64,000 nt of DNA from Alphaproteobacteria bacterium (GTDB lineage Bacteria > Pseudomonadota > Alphaproteobacteria > RF32 > CAG-239): assembly GCA_015062535.1 (NCBI GenBank), contig SUUK01000001.1, forward strand, positions 319,917 through 383,916. The letters run 5' to 3'. This document shows positions 22,562 to 51,709 of this stretch, one piece after another; within the stretch, counting starts at the first letter, position 1; each line of letters begins with the position of its first letter. The notes beneath the pieces are model-generated. The model saw nothing but the letters and a program-made list of their open reading frames with translations, searched no databases and was not told the DNA's origin. Both the position numbers and the translations under genes were made by a program.

Positions 22562-22597
22562 CTCTATTCTCCTAAAATAATCGACTAAAAATTCTAT

Positions 22598-24193
22598 TTA
22601 TCCTTTAACAGTAAGCCTTCCATTCAAATAAAATTTATCACCTGTATTAAGACTAGCTTCTTCTACTTCTCTTAAACTATTAAATTTGGGATAACCAAGT
22701 TCAATACGTTGTTGTTGTCTTGCAACATTTTTTAATACCTCTTTCTTATTATCACTAAACAATGCTTGCTTATAAAAATTCTCCCAAACTTCTTCTTCAT
22801 TGTTTCCGCTATAATATTGACGAAGTAATGGCTTTAACTCGGCAACACTAACCCCTAAACCAACATTTTCCTTATAACCCAATTCATTCTTAGTTTCTTC
22901 TAAAGCTTTTTTCCCTAAAACCTTTTCTGCTTGAGAATTTAAAATTCCCCCTTGATTTATAAAATCTTGAAACAAAGCCATTTTTTTACCATAATATGTT
23001 TCATAAATATCAAGTCCAAGCCTTGCTTTATCTTCCATAATTTTTTTAGAAACAAAATCTGTTGCCTCAATATCTTTTACAAAAACACTATCAACAAACT
23101 CTTCAATATCATTATCAAAAAATCTTTTGGCCAAATTCGAATCACCTTGAGCTTCAATAATTTTATTTTGTAAAGATGCCACTTGATCAAAGCCAATTTT
23201 ACCCTTTTTATATGCATTTATTAAACCATTTTCAGCATTTTTAATTTCATCATTACTTAGTTCATTTCCATTATTCATTTTTTTCAAAATTTTATATGCA
23301 TCAACCAAATCACCACTATTATTTTTCCCAAATATTTCATCATCATATTGAGAGCTCAAAACAAAAAATTCAGCATTTCCGATTTCTCCCCGTTCCTTTT
23401 GTTGCCATAAACTAGTTGCATCAGAAATTTGTTTTATAAATTTCTTTTTATTTTCAGCATTTAGTTTATTTTCTTCATCTAATTTACGAAACTTTGAAAT
23501 TTCACCAATTTTATTTACAAGCCCATCATCAACATCTGCCATATATTTTTTAGCTTGATTATATGCTTCATTTTCATCAGACAATGCCAAATTTAAAATG
23601 CCCATTGTTAAATATTCTTTTCTTAACTCATCACGTTCTTTATCATCCAAAAATTTTGTTTTATTAATTTCTTCAACACCTCTTGAAAGCAAAACATCAC
23701 CTTTTTTGCTCATAGCATTAACCAACATACTTTGGTTATTTGCAAGCATTGATTTTAAACTATTTTTACCAAAATCATATTCTTTTAAATTTCGAATTTT
23801 CTCGATATCTTTTCTATTTTCTTCCAATAATTTATTACCATACTTTTCAAAAAATATTTTTCCACCTTCATTTAAAGAAAAAACATTTTTTACATCTCCA
23901 TCAATACTTGTTGCTATACTATCAAATTCTTCAGGATTTTTAGCATTACTAAGAGCTAATTTATATTCATTTAAAACCGCATCAGCATATAATCTATTTT
24001 TCTCTTCTTCATACTTATTTCTCTCATTTGCCAACTGAGCTGTTTTTTTTAGCACATCAGAAACACCGCCCAACATTTCCCCACCAGCAGCATATCTCTT
24101 TAATCCCACAGGAAGCAAAACTCCATTTGCTTCATTTTTAAGCAAAGCCCCACCCTTTTGCATAGCAGGTACTGTTTGTTCATTTCTTCTCAT
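22598..24193 (-). CDS. gp15-like internal virion protein
   Basis: A 531-residue, mostly helical, charged protein without membrane segments. Its opening resembles internal virion proteins of T7-like podophages: VPAMQKGGALLK, then KRYAAGGEMLGGVSDVLKKTAQLANERN, then long coiled segments. Position between gp14-like and gp16-like genes, with gaps of 14 and 36 bases and good ribosome binding sites (AAGGAG), fits T7 gp15, which with gp14 and gp16 forms the DNA-ejection channel. The assignment rests on order, size and composition more than on a motif. Confidence 0.7.
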   Translation of the reverse strand: MRRNEQTVPAMQKGGALLKNEANGVLLPVGLKRYAAGGEMLGGVSDVLKKTAQLANERNKYEEEKNRLYADAVLNEYKLALSNAKNPEEFDSIATSIDGDVKNVFSLNEGGKIFFEKYGNKLLEENRKDIEKIRNLKEYDFGKNSLKSMLANNQSMLVNAMSKKGDVLLSRGVEEINKTKFLDDKERDELRKEYLTMGILNLALSDENEAYNQAKKYMADVDDGLVNKIGEISKFRKLDEENKLNAENKKKFIKQISDATSLWQQKERGEIGNAEFFVLSSQYDDEIFGKNNSGDLVDAYKILKKMNNGNELSNDEIKNAENGLINAYKKGKIGFDQVASLQNKIIEAQGDSNLAKRFFDNDIEEFVDSVFVKDIEATDFVSKKIMEDKARLGLDIYETYYGKKMALFQDFINQGGILNSQAEKVLGKKALEETKNELGYKENVGLGVSVAELKPLLRQYYSGNNEEEVWENFYKQALFSDNKKEVLKNVARQQQRIELGYPKFNSLREVEEASLNTGDKFYLNGRLTVKG

Positions 24194-24207
24194 CTAACCA
24201 CTCCTTA

Positions 24208-24654
24208 TTAAAAAATTCCCGCAACAGAGCTCAATAACGAACTCCCAAATGAATTATAATATTTTTTCTTAAGTTGCTCAGCATTACTTTCTGCAATTCT
24301 TGCTTGATACAAATAATTTTCAGCTTCACTTTCAATTCTAAATCTTTCATTTAAAACATTCTGTTCCAAAGCATTTGCACTTGTTGCAAGAGCACTCATA
24401 GTTGTAGGACTTTCGCTAATACCAGCCTCACCAGCAATCGCACTATTATTTGCGATATATGCTCTATTTTTCGAGCGAGCTATATCTTCATTCATAGCAC
24501 CAACAGCCCTAACCGAAAATGCATTTCTTTTTAAAATTTCCGCATTATTTAATTCTGTTTCAGCCATTGTTAAATATTGTTGTCTTTCTTGCTCAGACTT
24601 CAACATATTTGAAGCAAACTTTAATCCTGCAATAACTGCTATATTATAAGCCAT
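24208..24654 (-). CDS. gp14-like internal virion protein
   Basis: A 148-residue alanine-rich helical protein starting MAYNIAVIAGLKFASNM, then heptad-like helices (YLTMAETELNNAEILKRNA, then EQNVLNERFRIESEAENYLY) and a hydrophobic end SSLLSSVAGIF. T7 gp14 and relatives share this size and alanine-rich make-up and form the outer-membrane end of the ejection channel. I start at 24654, preceded by AAAGGAG; the longer frame overlaps the upstream gene. The previous gene's stop lies 5 bases upstream. Confidence 0.7.
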   Translation of the reverse strand: MAYNIAVIAGLKFASNMLKSEQERQQYLTMAETELNNAEILKRNAFSVRAVGAMNEDIARSKNRAYIANNSAIAGEAGISESPTTMSALATSANALEQNVLNERFRIESEAENYLYQARIAESNAEQLKKKYYNSFGSSLLSSVAGIF

Positions 24655-24658
24655 CTTT

Positions 24659-25069
24659 TCACTCCTTTCTTTCATACAATAAATAATTTTCGCCATTAAA
24701 AAAAAGTGGCAATTTTGCCACTTCGTAAAACCCTAAAATTTTTGCCATTTTTTTAGCATTATCAAAATTTTCTTTAACAGTAATTAAAACTCTATCAACT
24801 TTATTTTTACAAATTTCTGTTTTAATTTTTTGTCTTACAAACTTGATAAATTCATACATTTTACCTTTAATATTCTCACCTATCAAAGCGTAACAATACC
24901 CAATATTGTCCTTAATTTCAAAACCAAACACACCTAAAATTTCATCTTCATCAACAATACTATATGCAACAATTTCATCAAAAAATTGTGCATTAAATAT
25001 TGCCTCCTCTTTCTGCTGATTTTGAACCATAACTTTCAACGCATCACCTTTTTTATATCGTCTAATCAT
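24659..25069 (-). CDS. gp13-like internal virion protein with GNAT-like fold
   Basis: A 136-residue protein that reads like a degenerate acetyltransferase: MIRRYKKGDALKVMV, a strand EILGVFGFEI, and a terminal block of NFDNAKKMAKILGFYEVAKL and FFNGENYLLYERK. T7 gene 13 product has this size, fold type and position directly before gp14. Whether acetyl-CoA is bound is doubtful because the usual glycine-rich loop is not visible. The C-terminal codons contain a complete intrinsic terminator (24698-24723). The ribosome binding site is weak. Confidence 0.65.
   Translation of the reverse strand: MIRRYKKGDALKVMVQNQQKEEAIFNAQFFDEIVAYSIVDEDEILGVFGFEIKDNIGYCYALIGENIKGKMYEFIKFVRQKIKTEICKNKVDRVLITVKENFDNAKKMAKILGFYEVAKLPLFFNGENYLLYERKE
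24698..24723 (-). terminator. intrinsic terminator embedded in the gp13-like coding sequence
   Basis: AAGTGGC and GCCACTT form a 7-bp stem with a six-base loop, and the minus strand runs into eight T. It lies in codons for VAKLPLFFN, 44 bases upstream of the gp14-like start. Confidence 0.75.
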
Positions 25070-25348: not shown

Positions 25349-25939
25349 TTACCAATTTTCTCTAACCAAAACCCAACTACTATCAGGAACAAGCTCAGTA
25401 TCTTTAATAATTTCATTATTAAGTTCAGCCTGCCTAATAAGGGTAATAAATTCACTATCAAGCATTTGCTTTAATGTAGTAGAATGCTTTATTCTCATAG
25501 ACAATTCCGATGCAATTTTTGCAGCCAAAGCTTCTCTAAACAGTGGCGAAAATTCCATATCATCATCAATATTTTTAACATATTCAGCCCTAACACCACT
25601 ATGAAGCAAACAAACAATTGCATTATTTACCACTTCATATGCTTGCAATTTATATTGCCTAATATCCGTCACATCTGTTTTTTCTGGTCCAAAAACATTA
25701 ATCAAAAGCAAACAATCCGTAGGCAATTTATACATATATCTATCACCATATTTTTCCTCTAATTTTGGTAAATATTTTATTTCAAGCGAAAATCTCCATG
25801 GATAAGACGAGAGCAACAATTCCTTAATATCATCATAGATAATTTCATAACTTTTACCAAAAACAGCATCATTCAAAGATGAAACCGGAGGTTCTCCAAG
25901 CTTCATCAACGCTCTATTTACTATATCAACTTTAGACAT
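25349..25939 (-). CDS. tail tubular protein A (T7 gp11-like)
   Basis: A 196-residue adaptor that in T7-like phages forms the ring between portal and nozzle. Family features are the opening DIVNRALMKLGEPPVSSLND, the segment IYDDIKELLLSSYPWRFS, the LPTDCLLLINVFG strand and FREALAAKIASELSMRI. GGAGG precedes the ATG. In T7 the nozzle gene follows directly; here it has been separated and lies 21 kb away at the other end of the locus. Confidence 0.88.
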   Translation of the reverse strand: MSKVDIVNRALMKLGEPPVSSLNDAVFGKSYEIIYDDIKELLLSSYPWRFSLEIKYLPKLEEKYGDRYMYKLPTDCLLLINVFGPEKTDVTDIRQYKLQAYEVVNNAIVCLLHSGVRAEYVKNIDDDMEFSPLFREALAAKIASELSMRIKHSTTLKQMLDSEFITLIRQAELNNEIIKDTELVPDSSWVLVRENW

Positions 25940-26776: not shown

Positions 26777-27676
26777 TTACGCTAACTCAAAAGCATCTTC
26801 TGTACCATTCTTAAAGTTATAAGAAGTGATAAATCTAATGCCATTCCAAGACATAAAGCTTCTATTTATATCAAACTCATAATTTGTTGCGTGCAAAACA
26901 TTACCCTTATATTGGTTAAGCATAGACAATACTTTAGGATGACAGAAAATATATGTAGAGGAAGGTGTAGCTTTTGCATCAACTAACATATTGTCAATTT
27001 GATCTGCTGTTGGAATATTATTTTGGTTAATATTAACAATTGCAGAAACCGCATCTTTATTTGCAAGTTGCATACCAATATAACCTTTAAGTCTCAAACC
27101 ATAACCAAGCACACCATCCGCATTCTTATACAAAGCACCGCCATTAATTGGTCTAGAATCTAAAAGTCCAAATTGGTTAATGTTAGTTTGAGAAAAAAGT
27201 CCAGTAACTTCGCCATCAACAAATCTAACAGCAACCATAGAATAACAATTTTCTTCAGCACCAGAACTTACTGCTTTACCATTACTAATTGCATAAGGAA
27301 GAAAGTTATCATAAATAATTTTCTTTTCAGCTGTTTGACCTGCATGTTTTAAAAGTACAGGAACTTTTTTACCAAAATATTCACTAATTCCAATAACAGA
27401 ACCTTTATCTTCAGGTAAGAATATTTCACCACCTAAAATAGATAAATCGATTTTTTTCAAATTAGAATCAACTTCCATCTCTGGTAAAGGTTGATTGATA
27501 TCAACAAAACCTGCTCCATTAATATGAGAAACTTCCTCATAAGCATTCCAAAGACCATGAGTAGAAGGTTCAAACTTCATATTATCAAGAATTGGAGACT
27601 CATCTGTTAAATTATTAACATAATGCTGTTGTTTTCTAGAAAGAGAAACAGCAATTTCTTTTAATGTACTAGCCAT
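26777..27676 (-). CDS. major capsid protein
   Basis: A 299-residue HK97-fold-type shell protein as found in Bbp17/podovirus groups. It opens SLSRKQQHYVNNLTDESPIL, contains the long middle strand region with GEIFLPEDKG, and ends with the P-domain pattern STYIFCHPKVLSMLNQYKGN, then ITSYNF at the C-terminus. Its position between scaffold (24 bases upstream) and decoration protein (23 bases downstream), with no terminators between, forms the tight assembly trio. No N-terminal protease or long delta domain is seen; a separate scaffold supplies that role. Confidence 0.88.
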   Translation of the reverse strand: MASTLKEIAVSLSRKQQHYVNNLTDESPILDNMKFEPSTHGLWNAYEEVSHINGAGFVDINQPLPEMEVDSNLKKIDLSILGGEIFLPEDKGSVIGISEYFGKKVPVLLKHAGQTAEKKIIYDNFLPYAISNGKAVSSGAEENCYSMVAVRFVDGEVTGLFSQTNINQFGLLDSRPINGGALYKNADGVLGYGLRLKGYIGMQLANKDAVSAIVNINQNNIPTADQIDNMLVDAKATPSSTYIFCHPKVLSMLNQYKGNVLHATNYEFDINRSFMSWNGIRFITSYNFKNGTEDAFELA

Positions 27677-28770: not shown

Positions 28771-28834
28771 TTCCTCCGTAAAAAAATTATTAATCCTATA
28801 AATTATATCCTATGAAATTATTAGATTTTGTATT

Positions 28835-29566: not shown

Positions 29567-29572
29567 CATCTA

Positions 29573-29607
29573 AAAAAACACCGCCATTATTTGACGGTGT
29601 TTTTTAT
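29573..29607. terminator. bidirectional terminator between 28835 and Bbp19-like genes
   Basis: AACACCG and CGGTGTT stem with A- and T-runs on either side, between convergent genes. Confidence 0.85.
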
Positions 29608-29624
29608 TTACTAACAAACCTTAA

Positions 29625-29966: not shown

Positions 29967-29991
29967 ATTTTCTTCCTTTCAAAAAAATTAC

Positions 29992-30023
29992 AAAAAAAAA
30001 GACATTTACTAAAAGCAAATGCC
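29992..30023 (-). terminator. intrinsic terminator 26 bases upstream of the Bbp19-like gene
   Basis: RNA GGCAUUU-GCUUUUAGU-AAAUGUC followed by eight U. The stem has one G-U pair. Confidence 0.78.
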
Positions 30024-30089
30024 CAAACCAAAGTCCAAAAAACTTTCTATCAATCACATCATTTCTAAAAATCCCTCATCTCTTTCCTA

Positions 30090-30117
30090 TTGACTTTTCC
30101 CCTAAAACTCATATCAT
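30090..30117 (+). promoter_or_regulatory. cassette-type promoter of the 30144 gene
   Basis: TTGACT (30090-30095), 16 bases, TATCAT (30112-30117). The promoter and 5' end are duplicated at 36543-36630. Confidence 0.5.
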
Positions 30118-30143
30118 AACCTAATCACTATAAGGAGCCTCAA

Positions 30144-30614: not shown

Positions 30615-30619
30615 TTATG

Positions 30620-38526: not shown

Positions 38527-38685
38527 TTACCACTTTTCTTTAATAGAAAGTATTTTATCTCTTGCCCATTTATTTCTTTCTGCTGATACATCCTTTCTAC
38601 TAACATTATCAGCAATAAGAGATAAATTTTTAGTCCTTATCCCCTCTCTAAGTTTCGGCCAATTTAAATTATAATTACTTAATTA
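38527..38685 (-). pseudogene. relic of a second lysin C-terminus
   Basis: Minus strand, ending at TAA 38527: NLNWPKLREGIRTKNLSLIA then DNVSRKDVSAERNKWARDKI. It has no start codon and a stop just upstream in the same frame. Its W-P-x-L, R-x-K-N and E-R-N elements align with the relic at 36393-36541 (YPRFW, NRDL, KRN). It lies directly behind the exported partner of the GH108 lysin, where displaced toxin ends are expected in polymorphic loci. Confidence 0.5.
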
Positions 38686-39413
38686 TGATATTCATCAAAA
38701 TAATCTTTTACTTCTTTCTTAACAAATTCTTTTACATCTGCAGCTATTGACGTCCCTACACTAATAGGAGGCATATAATCATCTTGAATATAATACATAT
38801 TTTTTCTAACAATCCTATATTTTTCAATCATATCATCAAACGACTTTTTATAATCATAAGAATTTGACGGATGAACAGCATCAAAAAATTCAAATAAAGC
38901 ACTTTTATAACATTCAGTTTTTTTCTCAATAGAGTTAACTAAATCATCATATTCATTTATTTTTTCATCCGCGCTAAATCTTTTTATATCACATTGGTTG
39001 AGTTTTTCTTCTGCAGTTTTAACAGAATGTTTCGCTTCTACTACTCTATCCTCTCCGATATCCATTACATCAAAAGAAGACATAAATTCACAACCAATAA
39101 ACAATCCCAAATTTAAATACTTTGTATTCTCTGCTAATCTCACAAACAAATAATTTGCTCCATATTCCTTATCTTCTATTATAAATTTACGATATTCATC
39201 ATTTTCTAAAAATTTTTCATTAAATATAATATCCTCAAATTTTACAATTTTAGCTTTAGGATAAGAAAGAAGCACAATTTCTTGCGCTTCTTTCAGTACA
39301 GATTTTGCTTTTTCCATTTCTTCATTTGTTATATTATCACAACCTAACTCATCTGCGAAACAATGAGTTCCCATAACACAACAAATAAACAATAGAAAAA
39401 ACTTTTTCATCAT
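38679..39413 (-). CDS. exported protein, candidate immunity partner of the GH108 lysin
   Basis: A 244-residue protein with a signal peptide (MMKKFFLLFICCVMGTHCFA, cleavage before DELG) and a helical, acidic mature part. Its start overlaps the lysin stop by four bases (ATGA), so the two are translationally coupled and made together. No known family seen. Co-production of a periplasmic protein with a muramidase is the best positional evidence in the window for an effector-immunity pair; inhibition is not shown by the sequence. Confidence 0.62.
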   Translation of the reverse strand: MMKKFFLLFICCVMGTHCFADELGCDNITNEEMEKAKSVLKEAQEIVLLSYPKAKIVKFEDIIFNEKFLENDEYRKFIIEDKEYGANYLFVRLAENTKYLNLGLFIGCEFMSSFDVMDIGEDRVVEAKHSVKTAEEKLNQCDIKRFSADEKINEYDDLVNSIEKKTECYKSALFEFFDAVHPSNSYDYKKSFDDMIEKYRIVRKNMYYIQDDYMPPISVGTSIAADVKEFVKKEVKDYFDEYHN

Positions 39414-40786
39414 TTTAATAATCCCTTTTTACGTTTTTGATGTCTTTGATAAGGTATTCTATCTAAATAATCTTCATATTTAGTTAAAAAATCGTTTCTT
39501 TTTTTAAGAAATAACTCATCAAAAACTTTTCCGTCAGAAAATAAGCTTCGAGCCCTTTCATACCATCCCTCTAAATTATTTATTTGATCGTGTTTCTTTA
39601 TTATAAAGTTAAAATGATGCCTCATTCTTGCTTTCAATAAATTATCAGCTATTTCAGTTTTTTGTTTCTCTGATAAACTTGATGTTATTCTAGCTATATC
39701 TAAAGGTATTACTGTATTTATTTTCTCTTGATTGTTTTCGTCATTTTTATCATCAATAACCTCATATAACTTTTTTTCTGTTACTCTTAAAATTTCCTCC
39801 GTAAAAAATTTATTCATTTTAGGTCCTGCTAACACACAAGAATCAAACGTTATTCTTGCTAATTTTTCATCAGGAATATAATTAATATTATAAGGCCTAA
39901 AAAACATTTCATTTAATATAACCATTGCTTGATTTTTTGTTAAATCTTTGACATTATCTGGCATACTTACATCACTTTTATAAGAAGATTTATATACATA
40001 TTTATAAGCATCTAAAGTATTTTGAGTAACCCCCATATTGGTTGGCCCACCCACATCTTTTTTATAATTAACATATCCTCCTTCCACTCGTTCAGTTGCA
40101 TTTTGAACTAATTTTCCATTATTATATTTCGCATGATAAATATCATGAAAACTAACCCCACCATTCCTTCTTACATTTAAATCAGCTAACGCCTTTTTCA
40201 TTTTTTTATCATTATTATCTTCTTTTTCATTATTACTTTCCTCACCTTTCTCCACTCTCACATCACTCTTTGTTCTTTCATGTTCATTATCAGCAACTTT
40301 TATCTCCCGATTTGCCTTATCAACCTTTTCTCTTAAAACATCATGCTCGCTTTTCTCTGAATTTTCCCTCTTAGGCTTTGGTTTCTCAACACCTTGTTGT
40401 TCTCTTAAAGCTCGAATAACAGTAAGCTGAGTATTCATATCAAGCCTATCAATTGCCCTCCTTTGCTCATCAGAAAGCTTTAATCCCTCCAAAGAAAAAT
40501 CCTCATCATCCGGAAGTAAAGAATTTGATTTCTTCACATTTGTTTTTATTTCATCATCACTAGAAGATTGTGGCGCTCTATACCCCAATCTCCTTTCTTC
40601 CAACACTTCATCTAAAGCACCATCAATTCTTGCAAAATCAAGCTCAAAATTATCTCTCAAATCTCCACTTTGCTCAATCTCTTCCACACTTCCATACTTA
40701 TCCAAAAGTTTATGAAGTTTTTTCTTATTTTCTCTTTTTGTAGCAATTTTACTCTCACCAACCAAGTCCAATAAATTAAAAGTCAT
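39410..40786 (-). CDS. modular lysin: shared N-module plus GH108 muramidase domain
   Basis: A 458-residue protein. Residues 1-183 repeat the N-module of the lysin at 30620-31783 with few changes (MTFNLLDLVGESKIATKREN versus MTYNLMDLVGDSKMATKREN). A charged linker follows, then a GH108 domain with the signature VEGGYVN (catalytic Glu235), KKDVGGPTNMGVTQNTLDAY and DNVKDLTKNQAMVILNEMFF. GH108 enzymes cleave between N-acetylmuramic acid and N-acetylglucosamine. There is no signal peptide. It lies downstream of the portal gene with a terminator between, and overlaps its exported neighbour by four bases. Confidence 0.83.
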   Translation of the reverse strand: MTFNLLDLVGESKIATKRENKKKLHKLLDKYGSVEEIEQSGDLRDNFELDFARIDGALDEVLEERRLGYRAPQSSSDDEIKTNVKKSNSLLPDDEDFSLEGLKLSDEQRRAIDRLDMNTQLTVIRALREQQGVEKPKPKRENSEKSEHDVLREKVDKANREIKVADNEHERTKSDVRVEKGEESNNEKEDNNDKKMKKALADLNVRRNGGVSFHDIYHAKYNNGKLVQNATERVEGGYVNYKKDVGGPTNMGVTQNTLDAYKYVYKSSYKSDVSMPDNVKDLTKNQAMVILNEMFFRPYNINYIPDEKLARITFDSCVLAGPKMNKFFTEEILRVTEKKLYEVIDDKNDENNQEKINTVIPLDIARITSSLSEKQKTEIADNLLKARMRHHFNFIIKKHDQINNLEGWYERARSLFSDGKVFDELFLKKRNDFLTKYEDYLDRIPYQRHQKRKKGLLK

Positions 40787-40800
40787 ATCTTTTCTCCATA

Positions 40801-40827
40801 AAAAAAAGCTTACATTAATGTAAGCTT
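40801..40827 (-). terminator. intrinsic terminator 15 bases upstream of the GH108 lysin
   Basis: AAGCTTACATTAATGTAAGCTT is a perfect palindrome; the minus strand then has eight T and ATGGAG leading into the lysin start. Confidence 0.9.
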
Positions 40828-40840
40828 TATATTAAAACAC

Positions 40841-42457
40841 TTATTTTAACCCCTTCATCGCACCCAATAACGGATTAGATGCAACTCCCATTAATGCCTG
40901 AGCATTTTCAATAGAAGACCTATATTTCAACATCATAACATCATCTTTTGTTCTAACAATATCACTTTCAACACCATGATAATCTGCAATTTTGCGCAAA
41001 GCATTTTCCATATCAAAAATATCAAGCACCTGTGGATTTGTTTGAGATAATGTAATCGCAGCCTCAACTGTTTTATATAATCCCATTATAGAATTTGCAT
41101 CTTGCATTCTAACTGATGGACTTTCAAATTCAATTGCAATAGACCCTTCATACATCAATTCATCAGGAACCCCTTCTAACATACCATAATTTGTTAAAAT
41201 ATCTAATTCTCTCTCAATATTTCCAGTCAACCACTCAGATGCAATTCTTTCAGCCATCGGAGCCAAAAGCATAGATTTTTCCATCTCTCTTTTCTCAACT
41301 TCTGTTGCTGTCATTTGCTTTGATTGTGTTAAAGATTGAAACAATGGTACCAAAAATGCTCTTTCAATAGAAGCTCTAACCTCTCGTTGCATTTCAACCG
41401 TAATAGCAAGATTATTTCCATACTGCATCGAAACCGCCTGAGGTTTACCTTGGTTATCAAGTCCGCCTCTAATCACCGCCCCTGCACTACCTAATTTATT
41501 AGTATCAATTAATCCCATATTTGTTAAAATTGGAGGATTAGCCTGTAATTGTCCTGTACGTAAAATTGTTTTCGCCATTTCATTTGCTGTTAGCATATCA
41601 TAAAATGCTTGTAGCGCTGGACTATCTCCATATGAACTTCCCGCAATACCCAAAAATCTAGGCGCCATATATGGATTAGATCTATATCCACTTTCTTGGA
41701 CAATTCTTTTTCCTAAAACCTCTAAATGAACACTAGCATATTTCATACCACCTTTATCTTTTTTGCCTATATCATAGTTTTCTTTTTCAAAAACAGCATG
41801 AATAAATTTAAACATACGCTGAGGAGTATCACTTAAAGCTCTTTTAATTTCGTTAGATACTTTATCACCAAATTTTTCAAAAGCATCTTGTGCACTAAGT
41901 TCATATTCCCTAATAACAGTATCCAAACATCCTTTATCATTACGTTTAATATATGCTTCATTAACAGGAATTGTTTTATATACAATACCATTGCCAATAT
42001 CATCATCAACCATCCAAAGCGCATGCCCATACACACCAAGCTGATTAAACAATAAATCACTTTCACTAGCAAAATTAGATTTTGCCGAATACCTGCATCT
42101 AAAAAGTAAATCCGTTGCACGCTCAAGATATTTCTTAACCTCTTCATTATCATCTAATTTAGGATCAACAGCTTTAAGTCTATGCCACCTAGATGTTGTT
42201 GGGACAATCACAGATTTCATACTAGCAGCAAAACAAGTAAGCGCATTACGAGCAGTGCTATCAAAAACATTTTGCTTATGACGTCCTTTTTCATCTTTAC
42301 TAAAAAGATTAGAATTTATAGCACACATTTCAGCCGCCTTATTCCACATAGGCTCCCACTCTTTGCGCTCTTTTTTCATCGCTTCAAGTTTTTTTAATAC
42401 AACTTCTGCTGTAATTTTAGATTTCTTTTCAGTTTTCTTTTTCAAAATTTCTTTCAT
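40841..42457 (-). CDS. portal (head-tail connecting) protein
   Basis: A 538-residue podovirus-type portal, the dodecameric ring through which DNA enters and leaves the head. Family features are KEWEPMWNKAAEMCAINSN, NVFDSTARNALTCFAASMKS followed by VPTTSRWHRLKAVDP, the middle RFLGIAGSSYGDSPALQAFY, and LTQSKQMTATEVEKREMEKS before the C-terminal barrel. I start at ATG 42457 because GGAGG lies inside the longer frame just before it. It follows the large terminase, separated only by a terminator. Confidence 0.92.
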   Translation of the reverse strand: MKEILKKKTEKKSKITAEVVLKKLEAMKKERKEWEPMWNKAAEMCAINSNLFSKDEKGRHKQNVFDSTARNALTCFAASMKSVIVPTTSRWHRLKAVDPKLDDNEEVKKYLERATDLLFRCRYSAKSNFASESDLLFNQLGVYGHALWMVDDDIGNGIVYKTIPVNEAYIKRNDKGCLDTVIREYELSAQDAFEKFGDKVSNEIKRALSDTPQRMFKFIHAVFEKENYDIGKKDKGGMKYASVHLEVLGKRIVQESGYRSNPYMAPRFLGIAGSSYGDSPALQAFYDMLTANEMAKTILRTGQLQANPPILTNMGLIDTNKLGSAGAVIRGGLDNQGKPQAVSMQYGNNLAITVEMQREVRASIERAFLVPLFQSLTQSKQMTATEVEKREMEKSMLLAPMAERIASEWLTGNIERELDILTNYGMLEGVPDELMYEGSIAIEFESPSVRMQDANSIMGLYKTVEAAITLSQTNPQVLDIFDMENALRKIADYHGVESDIVRTKDDVMMLKYRSSIENAQALMGVASNPLLGAMKGLK

Positions 42458-42473
42458 AAATACCTCCATAAAT

Positions 42474-42496
42474 AAAAAAAGGAGAGCAAGCTCTCC
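42474..42496 (-). terminator. intrinsic terminator 16 bases upstream of the portal start
   Basis: GGAGAGC and GCTCTCC form a 7-bp stem with a 2-base turn, then seven T and TTTATGGAGG on the minus strand. There is no room for a promoter between it and the portal gene. Confidence 0.9.
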
Positions 42497-42515
42497 ATAT
42501 TAAAATTTTAAATAA

Positions 42516-43808
42516 TTACCAATAAACATTATCGTCAACAAAACTCTCTTTCTTATTTAATGTCCTTGCCAAAAATTCAACATTTTTAATAGCAAAAGTC
42601 AACGCCAAGGCATCACCAATATCTGTAGAATGCCCTATACGTTTTTTTATTTCAGACTTTGCCTCAAGTTGTAATCGACCAATAGCATCATACATCTTTA
42701 ACGGCGCTGTTAAATCTTCAACAATTCCCTCAACTTTGGGTAATTTAACCCCAACACTAGATTGCAACCATTCCCTAATCCTATCCCACATCTCAGCTCT
42801 ACGATTAACATATCTTTCAGGATTTTCAGCCTTTTCACCAAAATTAACCGCAACAACTTCATTAATAAACCCATTATTAATCAATACATCATACACCCCC
42901 GCTCCACATCCACCAACGTCAATACACACCCTACTTGGATGATACTCTGCAATAATCCCCGACACCTGATGAGCAACTTGTACAACATCAAGTTTTTCAA
43001 AACTTAAAAAATTCTCAACCACACGTCCCCTTCTAAAACAAATAGCTGTTTTATCATCACCAAAACGAGCTACATCAACCCCTATCACAAGAGGTACATA
43101 ATTATTTATATTATCAGCTTTTCTATCCATAGCCTTATAAACATCTTCTCTACCAATAAGATGATTACCAGCAAGTCTTCTTGGCTCACCTTCCCACACA
43201 TGAAGATACTCTTCATAATTTTCATTCTTCATTTTCAATGCAAGCTTTTTCATATTAAGAGGACAATAAGGATTATCATAATAATTTACTTTTTTTAATA
43301 TAACATCATTATCCGGCTTTAAAGCTAAAGCTTTCCAAACAGGGTCATTTTCTTCCTCTCTATTAAGTGATAACCAAATTTCCGCTCCATTTTTTCTAAT
43401 TGTAGGGTCTAAAACTTCCCATGCTCTAAGCGATATTTTTTGAGCTTCTTCGCACCAACAAATATCCACCCCTTCCAAAGATTTTATATTAGATGCATTA
43501 TGTTCAAGCATACCTTTGAAAATAAATTTTGACTTATTCTTTAAGTTTACAATTTTATCTTCATAGATTTTATACTCACTTAGTCCATAAAAATTAATCC
43601 TATCAACAATTAGCTTATAAACAGAATCTTTAATAGAATTTTGCACTTCTCTAACACAAGCAATCAACATTTTTTTACTTGTCGCCTTTATCAATAATGC
43701 ATCCGCAAAAGCAAAAGATTTTCCTCCTGCTCTTCCTCCATAATACATTTTATATCTAGCATTACTTGTCAATAAATCCTGAAATGCTCTAGGTAATTCA
43801 ACTTTCAT
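42516..43808 (-). CDS. terminase large subunit
   Basis: A 430-residue packaging motor. The ATPase half has Walker A GGRAGGKS at 24-31 and Walker B-like VDICWCEEAQ near 115-124. The nuclease half starts VIGVDVARFGDDKTAICFRR near 240 and continues with VCIDVGGCGAGVYD and the final STDIGDALALTFA Asp. Both halves look intact, so packaging is possible. In a gene transfer agent this enzyme would cut host DNA by headful; the sequence cannot show which mode applies. It starts 14 bases after the small subunit. Confidence 0.95.
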   Translation of the reverse strand: MKVELPRAFQDLLTSNARYKMYYGGRAGGKSFAFADALLIKATSKKMLIACVREVQNSIKDSVYKLIVDRINFYGLSEYKIYEDKIVNLKNKSKFIFKGMLEHNASNIKSLEGVDICWCEEAQKISLRAWEVLDPTIRKNGAEIWLSLNREEENDPVWKALALKPDNDVILKKVNYYDNPYCPLNMKKLALKMKNENYEEYLHVWEGEPRRLAGNHLIGREDVYKAMDRKADNINNYVPLVIGVDVARFGDDKTAICFRRGRVVENFLSFEKLDVVQVAHQVSGIIAEYHPSRVCIDVGGCGAGVYDVLINNGFINEVVAVNFGEKAENPERYVNRRAEMWDRIREWLQSSVGVKLPKVEGIVEDLTAPLKMYDAIGRLQLEAKSEIKKRIGHSTDIGDALALTFAIKNVEFLARTLNKKESFVDDNVYW

Positions 43809-43822
43809 AATTTTTCACCAAA

Positions 43823-44197
43823 TCAAATAAATTTAACCATTATCTCTTTAACATCACTAGCATTATCGTCATTAAGATTAATCTCACCAAGATCACTATT
43901 AGATTTACTAATAAGCCACTTCATCGTTTCAATTAAAAGCTTTGCCGTAGAATTATCAATTTCACCTTTTTTTAACTCTTCCACAATCTGGCGAATATCA
44001 TCCGTACACTTATCAGCATAATCAGAAAGCGCAAGCAAATACTTCTCTTTAAATATTTCATTTTTTGCCAAAACATCATAAAATTCCTTTGTTGAAAGAT
44101 TAACTTCTAAACATGCCATATAAAGAGATTTTCCTATTCTTATCATATCCAAAATCTGATTTATAGCACACTCCTTTTTAGATACATATTTTCTCAA
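43823..44197 (-). CDS. terminase small subunit
   Basis: A 124-residue helical protein directly before the large terminase. The N-terminal part carries a helix-turn-helix (ECAINQILDMIRIGKSLYMACLEVNLSTKEFYDVL), followed by an acidic oligomerisation region (YADKCTDDIRQIVEELKKGE) and STAKLLIETMKWLISK, as in terminase small subunits that recognise DNA for packaging. The start is TTG at 44197, supported by AGGAGGGAG just upstream and the lack of a better ATG. Confidence 0.85.
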   Translation of the reverse strand: MRKYVSKKECAINQILDMIRIGKSLYMACLEVNLSTKEFYDVLAKNEIFKEKYLLALSDYADKCTDDIRQIVEELKKGEIDNSTAKLLIETMKWLISKSNSDLGEINLNDDNASDVKEIMVKFI

Positions 44198-44208
44198 AAC
44201 TCCCTCCT

Positions 44209-44234
44209 AAAAAAAGTGGAGCATAAAGCCCCAC
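44209..44234 (-). terminator. intrinsic terminator 12 bases upstream of the small terminase
   Basis: RNA GUGGGGC-UUUAU-GCUCCAC with one G-U pair, then seven U, which run into AGGAGGGAG before the TTG start. Confidence 0.82.
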
Positions 44235-44237
44235 CAT

Positions 44238-45302
44238 TTACACTATTTCATTATCAGGAAAATAGGATGGATTCTTGTCAACTACTTTCATTGGACTATA
44301 TACTTCATCACCTATTTTCCAATAACAATCGCCTAAATATAATTTGCCTAAAAGTGGCTCGATATAAGAACTTCCGCTATACCAAGCTCCAGCAACCATA
44401 ATATCTAAACCGCTAAGTAAAAGACTTGTTGAATTATATACAATATCATCAATGTAAGTTTCGCCATCAAGAGAATAGCTTAACACATATTTTGAACCAT
44501 CAAAACTAGCTTTCACCCAATAAGTTGTATTCGGTTGTATCGTGTATGTTCCTGTTGTATTAAGCATCCAAGAATATCCAGAAGCTAAAGTAAGATTAAA
44601 TTTGCTTCCTTGCATACGTATAATCAAACCATATCTACCATTACTAGTTAAATCATTATGAAAATGATATATACCTTGCAAATTTGGAAAACTATCTGTT
44701 GTTGTAAATTTAGCAACCACTTCCCAAGTATTGCTACCAACTTCAAAAGATTTATCAAAAGATATATAATTACTTCCACTAAAACCAGAATAACTACCAT
44801 CAGCATTCATTGTTACATTGCCAACCATATTGAAATCTGGTTTATAAAGAGGTTTATAAGTAAACGAAGGCAAAGAGTATTGCCCTGCCCAAGTATATCC
44901 TTCTTTATCAATATCTTTATTATCTAATAAAATCTCATTATCTTTAACAAAAGCAGACAATGTCGTACTAATATAAGGTGATATTGTTACATTTTCAGCT
45001 AAACAACCTCTAACTGTAACAAAACTTGTTTCATCTTTTTTCACAAAATATTCTTCACCATCATTAGGAATTAAAAAACCTTCAAAATCAGAAGAAGTTG
45101 TGCCATTCCAAAGCTTTTTACCCTTAAAACTTATTAACCCACCAGCAAAATCATACTCAAGCCCTTCAAACTTTGTTAAACTAATGCCTTTTTCAGTACT
45201 TTCATTAAATTTTTCTATAATATCTTGATAATAGTAACGAGGTTTACGAACTTTAATTCCCACTGGTAAACCCTTAACAACTTTCTTATTAAATATTGTC
45301 AT
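44238..45302 (-). CDS. putative tail fibre/adhesin with a LamG-like domain
   Basis: A 354-residue beta-rich protein. Residues about 160-300 form a concanavalin/LamG-like lectin domain: YISFDKSFEVGSNTWEVVAK, RYGLIIRMQGSKFNLTLASG, TYWVKASFDGSKYVLSYSLD. Such domains bind surface glycans in many phage tail proteins. Its start shares one base with the stop of the upstream gene (TAATG), so the two are coupled. No hypervariable repeat or reverse transcriptase was seen nearby. Receptor unknown. Confidence 0.65.
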   Translation of the reverse strand: MTIFNKKVVKGLPVGIKVRKPRYYYQDIIEKFNESTEKGISLTKFEGLEYDFAGGLISFKGKKLWNGTTSSDFEGFLIPNDGEEYFVKKDETSFVTVRGCLAENVTISPYISTTLSAFVKDNEILLDNKDIDKEGYTWAGQYSLPSFTYKPLYKPDFNMVGNVTMNADGSYSGFSGSNYISFDKSFEVGSNTWEVVAKFTTTDSFPNLQGIYHFHNDLTSNGRYGLIIRMQGSKFNLTLASGYSWMLNTTGTYTIQPNTTYWVKASFDGSKYVLSYSLDGETYIDDIVYNSTSLLLSGLDIMVAGAWYSGSSYIEPLLGKLYLGDCYWKIGDEVYSPMKVVDKNPSYFPDNEIV

Positions 45303-46642
45303 TACAATACTCCCTCAAAAATAATCTCATCTTCTGTGACATTAACATCTGTTACAACTTTCAAATCAAGTTTCTCTGGCAACGTCATCTCAACTTCATA
45401 TCGACCTAAATCATCTACATTACCAGTTGCAATACCTGTAAATGAATTAGATGAGTTATAATTAAAGTGTTGATTACTTACAATTTCCCATCCTGCTTTT
45501 CCTAATATAAAAAGACTAACATCCATTGTACTACGAGTATGTCTAAGTGTTATAATTGCTTTACTCATATCAGGAGAAAATGCCAAACGATAACAATAGT
45601 TTTGATTAGTATTATCAATAAGTCTAAAAGTATATAGCAATTCTTCAAAAACCATTCTATTTCTATTAAACTTATAAGCATACACATTATCACGAGTACC
45701 GACTGTAAGTATATCATTTCTCATATCAAATTGCACTAAACAATCTTCTAATTGAAATAATTTAAACTCATCTTCAACAAACATTAAACTTTTTTTACCA
45801 TCTCCATTATCTACAATTTTATAGACAATTAACGAGCTTTTTTCTGCACTATTTGCAGTCCCATTTGATGCATACTTGTTACTATAATTAGTTGCAAAGA
45901 ACATATAATCACCAACTCTAGTTCCAGTAAAAGTTGTTAATCTAAAATCACTTACAACATTTAATGTTATCTCATTATTAACTTGAAATGCACCATTGTC
46001 ATCAATATAAAAGAATGTTATTATTTGATTATTTGATATAGAAAAACCTTCTCCAGTTTCTTCATCTAAATAACATAAACCACAATAAGAACCAGTAAAT
46101 TTAGTTAAAATTGTAGTACCAACTGTATTGTTTATAAAGTCATAATCATAAACTTGGTGAGAGTCTCTATAAATAACATAATCTTTTCCTTTATATCTCC
46201 CTAAATAAAGATGTTTAGAAGGAATCGGAGTTGTCATACTACTATATAAGAAACATCTTTTATAATCTGAATAACTTGCACTTAAATGTATTGTTCCATT
46301 AGGAAAGAAAACAAATCCACCATTATTTGGTTTAGTCCAATTATTAACATTTGTTGAAGTCCATTTATTATTAAGATAGGTATATTTAGTCCAAATATTA
46401 TTATAAAGTATAAAAGCATTGTCATTATCAGAAAAACAACATCCCCAATCTTGAAAATCACTAGTATTATTAGCTATATTAAATCCACTACCCAATACTT
46501 TCGGACTAACACCTGCAGTAACTAAAACTTTATCACCACTGTTTATATCACTACCAGTAGAGTTCTCAACAAATATTTTATCTCCACCGCCAGAGCCACC
46601 ACTATTTAATAAAATTAACGCATTAACTTTTCCCTTAGTCAT
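45302..46642 (-). CDS. putative tail fibre/propeller-like receptor-binding protein
   Basis: A 446-residue protein. It opens with a glycine/serine-rich turn (LILLNSGGSGGGDKIFVENS), then SGDKVLVTAGVSPKVLGSG, and continues with repeated beta-strand blocks of about 45-50 residues ending in aromatic turns (YLGRYKGKDYVIYRDSHQ, MFFATNYSNKYASNG, AYKFNRNRMVFEELLYTF), which suggest a beta-propeller. It lies between nozzle and fibre genes with GGAGG before its ATG. Named by position and fold impression only. Confidence 0.55.
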   Translation of the reverse strand: MTKGKVNALILLNSGGSGGGDKIFVENSTGSDINSGDKVLVTAGVSPKVLGSGFNIANNTSDFQDWGCCFSDNDNAFILYNNIWTKYTYLNNKWTSTNVNNWTKPNNGGFVFFPNGTIHLSASYSDYKRCFLYSSMTTPIPSKHLYLGRYKGKDYVIYRDSHQVYDYDFINNTVGTTILTKFTGSYCGLCYLDEETGEGFSISNNQIITFFYIDDNGAFQVNNEITLNVVSDFRLTTFTGTRVGDYMFFATNYSNKYASNGTANSAEKSSLIVYKIVDNGDGKKSLMFVEDEFKLFQLEDCLVQFDMRNDILTVGTRDNVYAYKFNRNRMVFEELLYTFRLIDNTNQNYCYRLAFSPDMSKAIITLRHTRSTMDVSLFILGKAGWEIVSNQHFNYNSSNSFTGIATGNVDDLGRYEVEMTLPEKLDLKVVTDVNVTEDEIIFEGVL

Positions 46643-46662
46643 TAAGTCCTCCTTTCATAAAA

Positions 46663-48792
46663 TTAATTAACATCCATATATGGAATAATCGCCAATATAT
46701 TCATAGGCAAAGGGCTATCATTTTCTATTAAAATTTGCGCCCCTTTTTCATTAATATTCGTCATTCCATTAAATAAAATTTCTTTATGTCCTGAAAATAA
46801 TTCCTGAGATTTATTCATAATCTCATCTACATTTCGATAATAAATATCTTGCAACATTTTTTCATTTTGACCAATCTTGCCACCGCCAGACATATATAAA
46901 ACTAGCAATACATGGTTTATTTTCTGTCTTTGCCCTATTCCACTTCCCATTTCATTGCCTATAAAAACATATTGCGGAATAAATTGGCTTTTAATAGGAA
47001 GTCCAACAACAACATGTGCATTGTTTTTAGAAATTTTTACCTTTCCATCAATAACAACTTGTTCATCACAAATAGCCCCGTCAGCAAAAATTTTAACCTT
47101 TTCACCTTCCAAATGCTCTAAGCCATTTATAACATCAGTATCGTCCCCAACTTTCCTATCAAAAATCACTGCCCCGTCAAGATAAAGTGCTTGGTGTTTT
47201 ATATACTCTCCTTCCAAACTTAAACGCTCATCAATATTTTCTGCTCCATAAACACTATCAGGCAAAAACTGCGGAAATCCGTGCTCCATTTTTTCAATTG
47301 TTCTAATATTTTTAGAACAAATATTTCGCTTTACCTCAATCCAAATATCATCATGACAATCATCTAAATTTGGAACTATTGCCATACTTTCAACTTTACC
47401 ACCAAAATCATGCCTAGAAAAAGCAACAACCTCCTGCTCACTAGAAAACGTCATACCAATTAATTGCCCATCATTCATTAAACACCATAATATCTTATCT
47501 GGAACTTCTTGATAACTCATCGCAACCAATCTCGAAGCAAACAAATGTTTTCCAAATATAGAAATATCTGTTTGATCATAGCCCTCGTTATAATAATCAT
47601 ACATTAAATCTCTCAAAGAAAGCCCGTATCTGTCAGAAAAAAACACATGCTTACCAACACAAACTGGCATAATAGCTTTACTTCCCACATGAGATATTTG
47701 CGATATTTTTACATTATCCGATGCCATCGCCGCCGAAGGCGTCATAGAATCAATATAAAATTCACTAGCACCCGTACCAACAAACAAAACATCTTTTGCA
47801 TAAAGCCATTTTCCTTCATTAAATTCATTATTAAGAACAGGAACCGTAATCGCTGTTTCAGCCGTTGCCTCCCCAACATCAAGATCCGAAAAATTATTAT
47901 AATCACCAGACATAGACAAACAAACATTAGGCCCTGTTTCAGTATTTAAAAGAAAACAAAATCTGTTCCTAAAAAAAGCACCCGATATAGGGTGCTTAAC
48001 TCCTTTATAAAGCATTCCTAATTCCCAATATTTCGTTCCTTTTTCAATACTATCAGGAAGTCTTGTAATAACCTTTGCTTTAACATTCTTGCTATCCACA
48101 AACTCAATAATTTTTACAAGCCCTATTCCATCGTGAATAAACTTCCATCTAACACCACCATCAGATTTAACCCCAATACTATGAACTGGCTTAATAGCAC
48201 CACTTGTTGCCTCATTAACTGAAACATAATATTTATTATCCGAAAAACAAATCTCTCCAATCTCATATTCTTTTCCGCTTACCCAACAATTTGTATCGTC
48301 ATCATAGTTACGAAGCCTAAGAAGTCGTCCCTCATCATTTGTTGTAAATAAATCTTCAGATGCGCTCAAATTAACATCACCCTCAAAAGCATCACTACTA
48401 ATCATACAATCACTAGTATTCATCGCTAAAAAAGGACCATTTTTTATCTCAAGTTCTTCTAATCGCCAATCAATATTTGAATATCTTTTAAGCATTGTTA
48501 TTGGATGATTTTCATTAAAAATATAAAGCACATCAGAATGTTGTATAGTTTGCAATCCAAAACATTTTTCATCATCATTCCATAAATCTTCATATCCATA
48601 TGGACTATCAATTACAAGTTCAGGATATTGATTAGCTAATAAATTTTCATCATCTGATAAAACTTCAACACCCCCTTCAGTTACAATCTGATTTTTTGCA
48701 AACAATCTTATTTTTTTATGACTAAATTCCACCACATAAGCTACTTTATGACTATACTTAAATGGCACTAAAAAACTTCTCTTATATCCCAT
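46663..48792 (-). CDS. tail nozzle (tubular protein B), C-terminal part of a split gene
   Basis: A 709-residue protein that carries the body of the podovirus nozzle. It opens KRSFLVPFKYSHKVAYVVEF then SHKKIRLFAKN, and has SPYGYEDLWNDDE, HSDVLYIFNENHP, the FRNRFCFLLNTETGPNVCLS block followed by SGDYNNFSDLD, KDVLFVGTGASEFYID, and the late VPDKILWCLMNDGQLIGMTF motif. In relatives the same chain begins with the FNGGELSP segment, which here is in the separate gene just upstream. I start at ATG 48792, two bases after that gene's stop, with AGGGAG upstream; the longer frame overlaps it. Confidence 0.85.
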   Translation of the reverse strand: MGYKRSFLVPFKYSHKVAYVVEFSHKKIRLFAKNQIVTEGGVEVLSDDENLLANQYPELVIDSPYGYEDLWNDDEKCFGLQTIQHSDVLYIFNENHPITMLKRYSNIDWRLEELEIKNGPFLAMNTSDCMISSDAFEGDVNLSASEDLFTTNDEGRLLRLRNYDDDTNCWVSGKEYEIGEICFSDNKYYVSVNEATSGAIKPVHSIGVKSDGGVRWKFIHDGIGLVKIIEFVDSKNVKAKVITRLPDSIEKGTKYWELGMLYKGVKHPISGAFFRNRFCFLLNTETGPNVCLSMSGDYNNFSDLDVGEATAETAITVPVLNNEFNEGKWLYAKDVLFVGTGASEFYIDSMTPSAAMASDNVKISQISHVGSKAIMPVCVGKHVFFSDRYGLSLRDLMYDYYNEGYDQTDISIFGKHLFASRLVAMSYQEVPDKILWCLMNDGQLIGMTFSSEQEVVAFSRHDFGGKVESMAIVPNLDDCHDDIWIEVKRNICSKNIRTIEKMEHGFPQFLPDSVYGAENIDERLSLEGEYIKHQALYLDGAVIFDRKVGDDTDVINGLEHLEGEKVKIFADGAICDEQVVIDGKVKISKNNAHVVVGLPIKSQFIPQYVFIGNEMGSGIGQRQKINHVLLVLYMSGGGKIGQNEKMLQDIYYRNVDEIMNKSQELFSGHKEILFNGMTNINEKGAQILIENDSPLPMNILAIIPYMDVN

Positions 48793-48794
48793 AA

Positions 48795-49838
48795 TTAATC
48801 TCTCCCTTCTATTGTCCAAACTAGCTCACCCTTATAATATATCTTAAAGACATTTCCTGATAAACTTCCATCATACAATTCATAAAATAAAGCATATTTA
48901 CCATTTTCATCTGTTTGCCAACCAACAGCTTTTTGAGTTCCGCTATCAATAGCCCAAACCAAATTTTGCTCCTTATCTCTATAATAAAGAGCATTTGCTC
49001 CACGAGATACAATACATAATTGATACTCTCCGTTTACTTTCGCAACGCCATTATACCCATCATATGTATCATAAATAAAAATATACCTATTAATTTCCTC
49101 AGGCACCACCAACTCAGCATCAAAAACAATTGGCAAATATCCTTTTTCAAATTTAAGCAAAATACATTTTCTTTGCTTCTCAATACTACCTAAAGCAGTA
49201 CAATTAACAAAACCAACAGGAGCGCCCCAATCTTCATAAATAGGTTCATTTTCTTCAACCTCATCTTCAACCAGATCTACATAAATAGTCATATCTTCTG
49301 TAAGCTTAACTGTTGCAGATTGCATAACATACCCATCTTTATAGACCATATAAAAGACATCTAAATTTTTATAAAATTCAGCAGAGCTTCTTTCATATCC
49401 CTCAATTTTTATTATCGCATCAGAAGGTGTCGCAACAATATTGATTTTGCACATCTCAACCATAGAAACTAAATCAACCTTAATTTCCATATCATCATTT
49501 ACATAACATTCGCCAAATTTAGAAGCATATCCTTCAGCCTTAACTTCATAACTAACTTTATCACCTCTTGCAACACAAATGCTATTTCTTTCCTGCCCAT
49601 CAATAATCACCACTGCATCAACTGGATTGGCAATAATTTTAAGCATCACCTCTTGTTCATCAAGCGTAAAGCTAACAAACCTAGTTCCTCCTCGCCTACG
49701 CAAACACCCTTCTGCAAGAGGAATAAAATTTCTGCACAATTTTGCAGTTTTATCATATTTAGCAATATCAGTCCTCCCCTCAAGCCAAGGACTAAGCTCA
49801 CCTCCATTAAATTGTACTTTTTCTGGCTTAATACTCAT
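48795..49838 (-). CDS. tail nozzle N-terminal part carrying inserted PEGA-like domains
   Basis: A 347-residue protein. Residues 1-55 are the classic nozzle start (QFNGGELSPWLEGRTDIAKY at 9-28, then CRNFIPLAEGCLRRRGGTRFV at 35-55). Two PEGA-like beta domains follow at about 65-124 (IIANPVDAVVIIDG) and 131-191 (IVATPSDAIIKIEG), then a further beta-rich region to the end. In relatives the nozzle chain simply continues after RRxGTRFV; here it stops and restarts in the next gene. The two pieces may assemble together. I start at ATG 49838, with GGAG upstream. It is the first gene after promoter P1. Confidence 0.8.
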   Translation of the reverse strand: MSIKPEKVQFNGGELSPWLEGRTDIAKYDKTAKLCRNFIPLAEGCLRRRGGTRFVSFTLDEQEVMLKIIANPVDAVVIIDGQERNSICVARGDKVSYEVKAEGYASKFGECYVNDDMEIKVDLVSMVEMCKINIVATPSDAIIKIEGYERSSAEFYKNLDVFYMVYKDGYVMQSATVKLTEDMTIYVDLVEDEVEENEPIYEDWGAPVGFVNCTALGSIEKQRKCILLKFEKGYLPIVFDAELVVPEEINRYIFIYDTYDGYNGVAKVNGEYQLCIVSRGANALYYRDKEQNLVWAIDSGTQKAVGWQTDENGKYALFYELYDGSLSGNVFKIYYKGELVWTIEGRD

Positions 49839-50113: not shown

Positions 50114-51709
50114 ATGATAAATATGATAGAAAAAATCTTAAATTTTAACCTAAAAAGCCACATATCTTCACTGATAAAAAAGGCTAATACCCCATTTTTT
50201 CTTTCTTTCATAACCACATTTGTTTTATTAAACATCATATTTTTATACCATGGTACACACTTTTTATTTGGCGACCATGACTGGAGATATCTAAAATCAG
50301 GCATTCCCCTAAATGCAGGCTTATTTGAAGGAAGATTTGCCCAATTTATCCTCGTAAACCTACTTAGTAATTCAGAAATCTACCCCATTATAAATAATTT
50401 CCTTGGATTTCTATGCTTTTCATTAGGTCTATCTTTACTTGCTAAATATTGGCAAATCCCAAACACTAAAGCCTCATACATAACCTTTAGCCTATTTATC
50501 GGCATTACTCCATATATATTATCATTTATGTACTTTGCCTTTTTAGTAATCCCTTGCCTAAGTTGGAATACTTTTATAATTGGAGCGTTACTATTATCTT
50601 CAAAAGAAAAAACTTTTTGCCTAAAAATAACCTTGTCCTCAATTTTGCTATTTACTTTAGCCCTTGGAGGATATCCCCCTGTTATAAATTTGTTTTTAAC
50701 AGCACTTACAACTAAAATCTTCTTAGACCTATTTTATAAGTCTGCAACACTTAAAACCTTAATCAAAGATTATCGCTACACAATTATCAATTTTATACTC
50801 TCTGCTATTTTATATAAATTAATCTTACAATATTTCATAAAAACAGGCGATATAAACTCAAGTTACTATAACCTACAAACAATCCCTTTTAGCCAATACC
50901 CATCAAAGTTTATTCTTATAACTAAAGACTTGTTCAAGCAGTTTTTAACAACCCTACCATTCATCACCTTTTCTTATAAGTCCTCTACTTTTGCAATCGT
51001 TATATTGGCAACCATTCATACCATATATAACATATGCAAAACCAATCAAAAACTATTAAAATCACTTGCCTACATTGCTATTTTCTACTCTGCTCTTGTT
51101 ACGTTATTTTTATCACCTTCCCTAAAAGAAACAGAGTTTTCACCAAGAATAGACTTCTTTGGTTTGCTATATGTTTATGGTGCAACTTTTGCGATCTGCT
51201 TAAAATCAAATAAAAAATACCTAAAAAATCTATCAATTCTATTTAGCATCTTTACCATACTTATTAGCACAAACTCCCTATTTGATGCGCAAAAAGTTTG
51301 GAAACTAGGTTTTGATACAGAACTAAACTTATATAAACGTATAGAAAAGCGCTTAAATTCCAATTCAACATTTAACAAATACGGCCACTACATAATCGTT
51401 CAAGGAGGTTCACCATCTTTTCGTAGTCGCTTTTATCACGAGCCACATATGATAAAAAGTGATGATTTACTTGATGTATCCTATGTTCCAGGCATGAACT
51501 CCGGCGTTATGCTCAATTACTATACAAACGAAGAATATGCAGATACAACCTCATTTGTTTACACATTTAGACCAGACACAAAAGCAAAAGAGTTTTTATC
51601 AATAGCCAAACCATGGCCATCAACAGAAAGTATCTCTGTTGGTAATTACTGGATAATGCTAATATTAAATAAATCAGGACTAAACGATTTGCGCTCTCGC
51701 TATCTCTAA
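50114..51709 (+). CDS. GtrII-like membrane glucosyltransferase
   Basis: A 531-residue protein with about ten hydrophobic helices. The first loop after the opening helix has FLFGDHDWRYLKSGIPLNAG then LFEGRF, close to the GtrII (O-antigen glucosyl transferase) family, in which a lipid-linked glucose is added to O-antigen outside the inner membrane. GtrII genes are known from phages that change the host receptor. Here it starts 120 bases from late promoter P1, in the opposite direction. The gtrA/gtrB partners are absent. Start at ATG 50114 or 50123; no clear ribosome binding site. Confidence 0.7.
   Translation: MINMIEKILNFNLKSHISSLIKKANTPFFLSFITTFVLLNIIFLYHGTHFLFGDHDWRYLKSGIPLNAGLFEGRFAQFILVNLLSNSEIYPIINNFLGFLCFSLGLSLLAKYWQIPNTKASYITFSLFIGITPYILSFMYFAFLVIPCLSWNTFIIGALLLSSKEKTFCLKITLSSILLFTLALGGYPPVINLFLTALTTKIFLDLFYKSATLKTLIKDYRYTIINFILSAILYKLILQYFIKTGDINSSYYNLQTIPFSQYPSKFILITKDLFKQFLTTLPFITFSYKSSTFAIVILATIHTIYNICKTNQKLLKSLAYIAIFYSALVTLFLSPSLKETEFSPRIDFFGLLYVYGATFAICLKSNKKYLKNLSILFSIFTILISTNSLFDAQKVWKLGFDTELNLYKRIEKRLNSNSTFNKYGHYIIVQGGSPSFRSRFYHEPHMIKSDDLLDVSYVPGMNSGVMLNYYTNEEYADTTSFVYTFRPDTKAKEFLSIAKPWPSTESISVGNYWIMLILNKSGLNDLRSRYL

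Follow-up and report, generated by a model that had tools for sequence, protein, structure and literature searches.

In short-tailed phages, the nozzle acts as the gate that holds and releases the DNA, and it is described as a single chain. Podophage nozzles with the fold of T7 gp12 and SU10 gp17, represented here by the tail protein family phrog_376 (712 positions) and the solved structures 8ck1 and 9efk, are accordingly encoded by one gene as one chain. In T7 gp12, the 45-residue N-terminus supplies three strands of the C-terminal platform barrel (PMC6702177); in SU10, the chain enters blade 1 of the propeller from the N-terminal part of the platform, and the loop that docks the short fibre sits on the same blade (PMC9509320). 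The open-access literature searched yielded no description of a split nozzle.

In the window, by which we mean the whole 64,000-nucleotide stretch of DNA analysed, the nozzle sequence is divided between two open reading frames on the minus strand, N1 (48795..49838; 347 aa) and N2 (46663..48792; 709 aa), which lie 2 nt apart as a preliminary description of the locus had reported. Profile searches aligned N1 residues 1-61 with phrog_376 positions 2-62 (E 6e-16) and N2 residues 4-709 with positions 64-710 (E 6e-142), so that N2, the nozzle body, runs from nozzle position 64 to the end of the profile. The two matches are complementary and gap-free; the cut is therefore precise and no nozzle sequence was lost, confirming that the break falls exactly at the end of the nozzle segment. 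N1 and N2 together cover the full length of phrog_376, but as two cistrons in all sampled cluster members instead of one polypeptide, and we therefore class the pair apart from ordinary phrog_376 nozzles. The solved nozzle 8ck1 matched N2 (E 2e-57) and N1 residues 9-55, and a second solved nozzle, 9efk, also matched the N1 anchor. The earlier assignment to a podovirus nozzle thus holds through phrog_376 and 8ck1, but its appeal to T7 gp12 does so for the fold only, as our searches detected no sequence match between T7 gp12 and N1 or N2. The AlphaFold model of N2 was of poor quality (pLDDT 47). We consider it probable, at roughly 0.77, that the pair forms a two-chain nozzle in which N1 supplies the missing part of the N2 platform as a separate chain and bears a receptor-binding arm.

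N1 consists of an anchor, a stalk and a tip, all on the minus strand. Residues 1-55 constitute the nozzle anchor MSIKPEKVQFNGGELSPWLEGRTDIAKYDKTAKLCRNFIPLAEGCLRRRGGTRFV (49674..49838), the part matched by phrog_376 positions 2-62, 8ck1 and 9efk, and it is followed by two head-fiber-dimer-like (PF25641) domains at residues 60-125 (49464..49661) and 126-190 (49269..49463). The Pfam family PF25641 (Head_fiber_dimeric) matched N1 in two stretches (E 8e-20; 70.8 bits against a curated cut-off of 30), and the crAss001 head fiber dimer gp29 (7qof) matched the stalk; the two stalk domains belong to the same family as gp29, which builds head fibres in crAss001, whereas the N1 copies are fused to a nozzle N-terminus. 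Two PEGA-like domains and a further domain had been described here: the two domains and the tip are present, but PEGA was rejected as the domain name, its match being sub-threshold (E 0.002) and that to PF25641 far stronger. When N1 was modelled alone, the stalk and tip were predicted confidently and the anchor was disordered (pLDDT < 50 for residues 1-59), and Foldseek comparison of N1 with the PDB gave nothing informative, the matches being uniformly weak (TM-scores about 0.2 or less).

The tip domain (residues 200-347; 48798..49241) is beta-rich, with a pLDDT of about 90, and had no match in family profile searches. A glycine-rich tip takes its place in the genome G003, in the locus L102 and in the viral contig L201, and by sequence comparison the tips are swapped between lineages; such variability and replacement fit, as expected, a receptor-binding end. 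Separately, we observed that two lipoprotein-like host proteins of 569 and 1114 aa (L073:3846-5555 and L074:1717-5061, in G000:C14 and G000:C3, respectively), with lipoprotein-like N-termini and similar proteins across the genus, have at their C-termini a domain that is homologous with the tip of N1 and may possibly be a shared adhesin domain.

Among the 18 genomes sampled from the genus, the window counted, N1 was present in 15 and N2 in 14, the gaps including partial genomes and contig ends. The nozzle is cut at one and the same point, and the frames are open, in all 13 genus loci (cluster or prophage) whose sequence covers the two sides of the junction (the window, G001, G003, G005-G010, G012, G014, G016 and G017), and likewise in G145 (L102/L186), from another genus of the family, and in the IMG/VR viral contig L201. 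None of these genus loci contains an unsplit nozzle, and unsplit genes occur in other lineages only, so that the same-locus unsplit relatives which, with an error here, would have spoken against the preliminary description did not appear. N1 of G015 is uninformative, as the contig end was reached and one stop was reported. A single N1 sequence used as query against viral sequences gave no match; alignment queries did.

Head and tail genes are under purifying selection, with dN/dS of 0.02-0.2 for most structural genes, although pairings for the GNAT and 531-aa genes were unreliable. Between closely related species, dN/dS was 0.02-0.05 for the large terminase (TerL), portal and putative major capsid protein (MCP), 0.06-0.08 for N2 and 0.16-0.19 for the whole of N1. 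Within N1, the anchor, which retains the most conserved nozzle motifs, had a dN of 0 in four species pairs (dS 0.34-0.79), which overlap in species and are non-independent comparisons, the stalk had ratios of 0.13-0.14, and the tip, at 0.20-0.31, was the fastest-evolving part. Collectively, the split looks like an intact and conserved working variant of a known tail part rather than a broken gene. The preference of the preliminary description for a two-chain nozzle accordingly gains support from the conserved split, the intact frames and purifying selection, with association of the chains as the inferred element.

The gene pair is part of a phage cluster that occurs throughout the genus, is apparently domesticated and lies dispersed across the window, a context absent from the earlier account. 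On the minus strand, N2 is followed by two candidate tail accessory genes, encoding a 446-aa protein (45302..46642; no significant family match) and a 354-aa protein (44238..45302; no family match), and then by genes for the Sf6-type small terminase (TerS; 43823..44197), TerL (42516..43808; found in 16 of the 18 genus genomes), the portal (Head-tail_con; 40841..42469) and a GH108 lysin (39410..40786). The 446-aa homologue occupies the same position in G007 and lies between the adaptor and GNAT genes in G011, with the 354-aa homologue adjoining it in both. Further along the same strand are the putative MCP (26777..27676; weak match to phrog_212, E 0.003; dN/dS 0.02), which is mostly 76-80% identical and in the same place across the genus, the adaptor or tail tubular A-like gene (25349..25939), which directly precedes N1 in most relatives, and genes for internal-virion-type proteins (GNAT-like, 162 aa, 531 aa and 1410 aa; 18329..25069), which directly follow N2 in most relatives. 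A GtrII-type glucosyltransferase gene flanks the element on the plus strand (50114..51709), and in about 12 genomes of the genus its orthologue adjoins the element; each genome encodes many paralogues of this family. Temperate phages are known to modify O-antigen by means of GtrII proteins.

The commonest order in the genus is GtrII, TerS, TerL, portal, scaffold, MCP, adaptor, N1, N2, GNAT and internal proteins, and the cluster lies near rpoD or lolA in several genomes. The nozzle gene order, from adaptor through N1, N2 and GNAT to the internal proteins, is kept in most relatives and displaced in the window and G007, where a block of N1, N2 and the 446-aa and 354-aa genes sits between GtrII and TerS instead. 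In the window, the structural genes form two blocks (15352-31783 and 38679-49838) with host genes between them that separate the portal from the capsid genes; these include one that we take, from its sequence and without a family search, to be malQ, and host genes are also present at this place in G011. As a minor observation, two lysin-like genes of the window (30620-31783 and 39410-40786) share near-identical N-terminal regions and have unrelated ends (VgrG3-C-like and GH108, respectively).

Because it is genus-wide and syntenic, is under purifying selection and has no recognised integrase or repressor, the cluster is probably a domesticated element of podovirus origin, resembling a gene transfer agent (GTA), in a genus of uncultured animal-gut Alphaproteobacteria. 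Structural and packaging genes are found genus-wide at a fixed locus and show vertical inheritance: the main groupings of the TerL tree agree with those of RpoD except for G003, several branches being weakly supported, and TerL went undetected only in G001, whose contig ends inside the cluster, and G004, which is 65% complete. Integrase, repressor and replication genes were not detected in Pfam scans of the window genes covering both blocks, nor among the cluster ORFs of G005, G016 and G012, which were judged by eye and from their homology to genes of the window. A more specific proposal, in which a genus-fixed, podovirus-derived GTA uses the arm of a two-chain nozzle, with a tip shared with host lipoproteins, to target sister cells, is tentative and in our estimate falls short of an even chance.

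Somewhat less likely still is that a working two-chain nozzle, which this alternative leaves intact, belongs to an ordinary temperate phage without domestication. Such an origin would suit L201, which is a viral contig, and G003, which has a divergent split-nozzle prophage at another locus; it fits less well with a resident, syntenic cluster in 16 of 18 genus genomes that lacks a recognisable integrase or repressor and, in the window and in G011, has host genes interspersed among its own. The divergent G003 prophage (L047/L048; G003:C3:26001-66000) has a split nozzle with a glycine-rich tip and what we take, by eye, to be HTH, HNH and methyltransferase-like genes. RpoD of G003 groups with that of G016, and a second, resident TerL was not found in the G003 genome (91% complete). 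If the domesticated reading is correct, the cluster would be the second podovirus-type GTA-like system after FpGTA of Faecalibacterium, the sole such report that we found (PMC12946183). FpGTA, likewise genus-wide and from a gut host, also has its podovirus-type structural genes divided over more than one block, but it belongs to a different phylum (PMC12946183), and the present cluster, described here from its genes, has a split nozzle.

We analysed residue coupling in 112 unsplit nozzles (mean-field DCA with a reduced alphabet; Neff 88; 714 columns). The three strongest anchor-body couplings reach the C-terminal 15% of the protein (z 11.0, 9.6 and 8.0), two of them ranking among the top three of the whole protein, and they link anchor columns 3-5 with columns 621 and 706-708; alignment depth is modest and enrichment is weak past the top few pairs. 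An earlier run with 66 sequences had also pointed to the C-terminus but was dominated by hubs. Taken with the topologies of T7 gp12 and SU10, which are carried over by similarity of fold, coupling to the C-terminal region suggests that the split most likely lies where the chain crosses from platform to propeller, near the place at which fibres attach in other podophages.

We therefore return to the two-chain nozzle, for which we propose the following arrangement. The nozzle would consist of two polypeptides from neighbouring cistrons, with N1 residues 1-55 as its own N-terminal segment, folding only jointly with N2 and contributing part of the adaptor-facing platform that is otherwise built by the N2 C-terminal region. 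The rest of N1 would leave the nozzle where an unsplit chain crosses from the platform to the beta-propeller, and would extend outwards as two Ig-like stalk domains ending in a tip for attachment to the surface of the recipient cell. Association of N1 and N2 in trans, with six copies of each per nozzle if it is a hexamer, and receptor binding by the tip are the inferred parts of this arrangement.

It could also be that N2 alone is the nozzle and that N1 is a fibre in its own right, using its nozzle-like start merely as a docking tag on the outside. Many phage fibres do attach through a short conserved N-terminus, and the disorder of the anchor in the isolated N1 model would suit such a tag. 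We nevertheless regard this as improbable: in all split lineages N2 starts exactly where the anchor ends and none has its own copy of the anchor segment, the anchor carries the most conserved nozzle motifs with a dN of 0, and its strongest couplings in unsplit relatives are with the C-terminal region of the body.

At the junction, the N2 ATG lies at 48792, 2 nt past the N1 stop, with an alternative in-frame TTG start at 48819. The Shine-Dalgarno-like AGGGAGA (48801..48807, minus strand), located within the end of N1 ahead of this ATG, bears out the good ribosome binding site described earlier. The overlap of stop and start signals is 8 nt in most relatives, 4 nt in G003 and 1 nt in L201, compared with the 2-nt gap of the window, and the junctions show several frame relations, differing stop codons and a Shine-Dalgarno-like sequence ahead of N2. 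Translation of the two genes is likely coupled by re-initiation, and overlapping or adjacent signals of this kind would yield similar amounts of N1 and N2. The overlap of the cistrons in most species could instead hint at frameshifting or readthrough that yields some fused full-length nozzle, but we give this little credence, as the varied frame relations make conserved recoding unlikely, stop codons also vary, N2 has its own Shine-Dalgarno-like sequence, and no conserved slippery site was noticed at the junctions by inspection rather than systematic search. Decay, frameshift or mis-assembly, the broken-gene option of the preliminary description, is the least credible explanation. The scattering of the cluster among host genes resembles prophage decay, but the relatives contradict this option: the identical split recurs with intact frames in independent assemblies of many species, full-length copies lack internal stops, structural-gene dN/dS is mostly 0.02-0.2, and the break replaces no nozzle sequence.

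The same site is reused for inserts in other nozzles. In an IMG/VR survey seeded with the anchor motifs, and thus biased towards query-like anchors, 135 of 142 distinct classifiable nozzles among the matches listed were plain single chains in which a few residues join the anchor to the body, five (L085-L088 and L167) had an insert at the split site, of 315-320 aa in L085-L088 and about 85 aa in L167, and two (L201 and L173) were split. In L173 (IMGVR_UViG_3300048767_000001; 5635-7916), a fibre gene stands between the halves: a short anchor ORF is followed by a PF23140 (podophage GP4 fiber I) gene (E 7e-29) and then by the body, which has about 190 additional N-terminal residues. On this one short contig, the split looks independent of that in the genus. 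Fiber I (PF23140, gp80) is part of the podophage GP4 tail, and a gp80-type gene inside the L173 nozzle marks the same site as an entry point for fibres; the window differs from the GP4 tail in that no gp80 homologue was detected among its scanned genes. A split that is conserved and coincides with a site where other phages insert domains or even a fibre gene would mark where a receptor-binding arm can enter the gate protein, and N1 and N2 may offer a natural split protein for probing how binding opens the channel. Finally, the viral contigs L085-L089 encode a single-chain nozzle of ~1150 aa with a 315-320-aa insert, without a Pfam match, at the split site.
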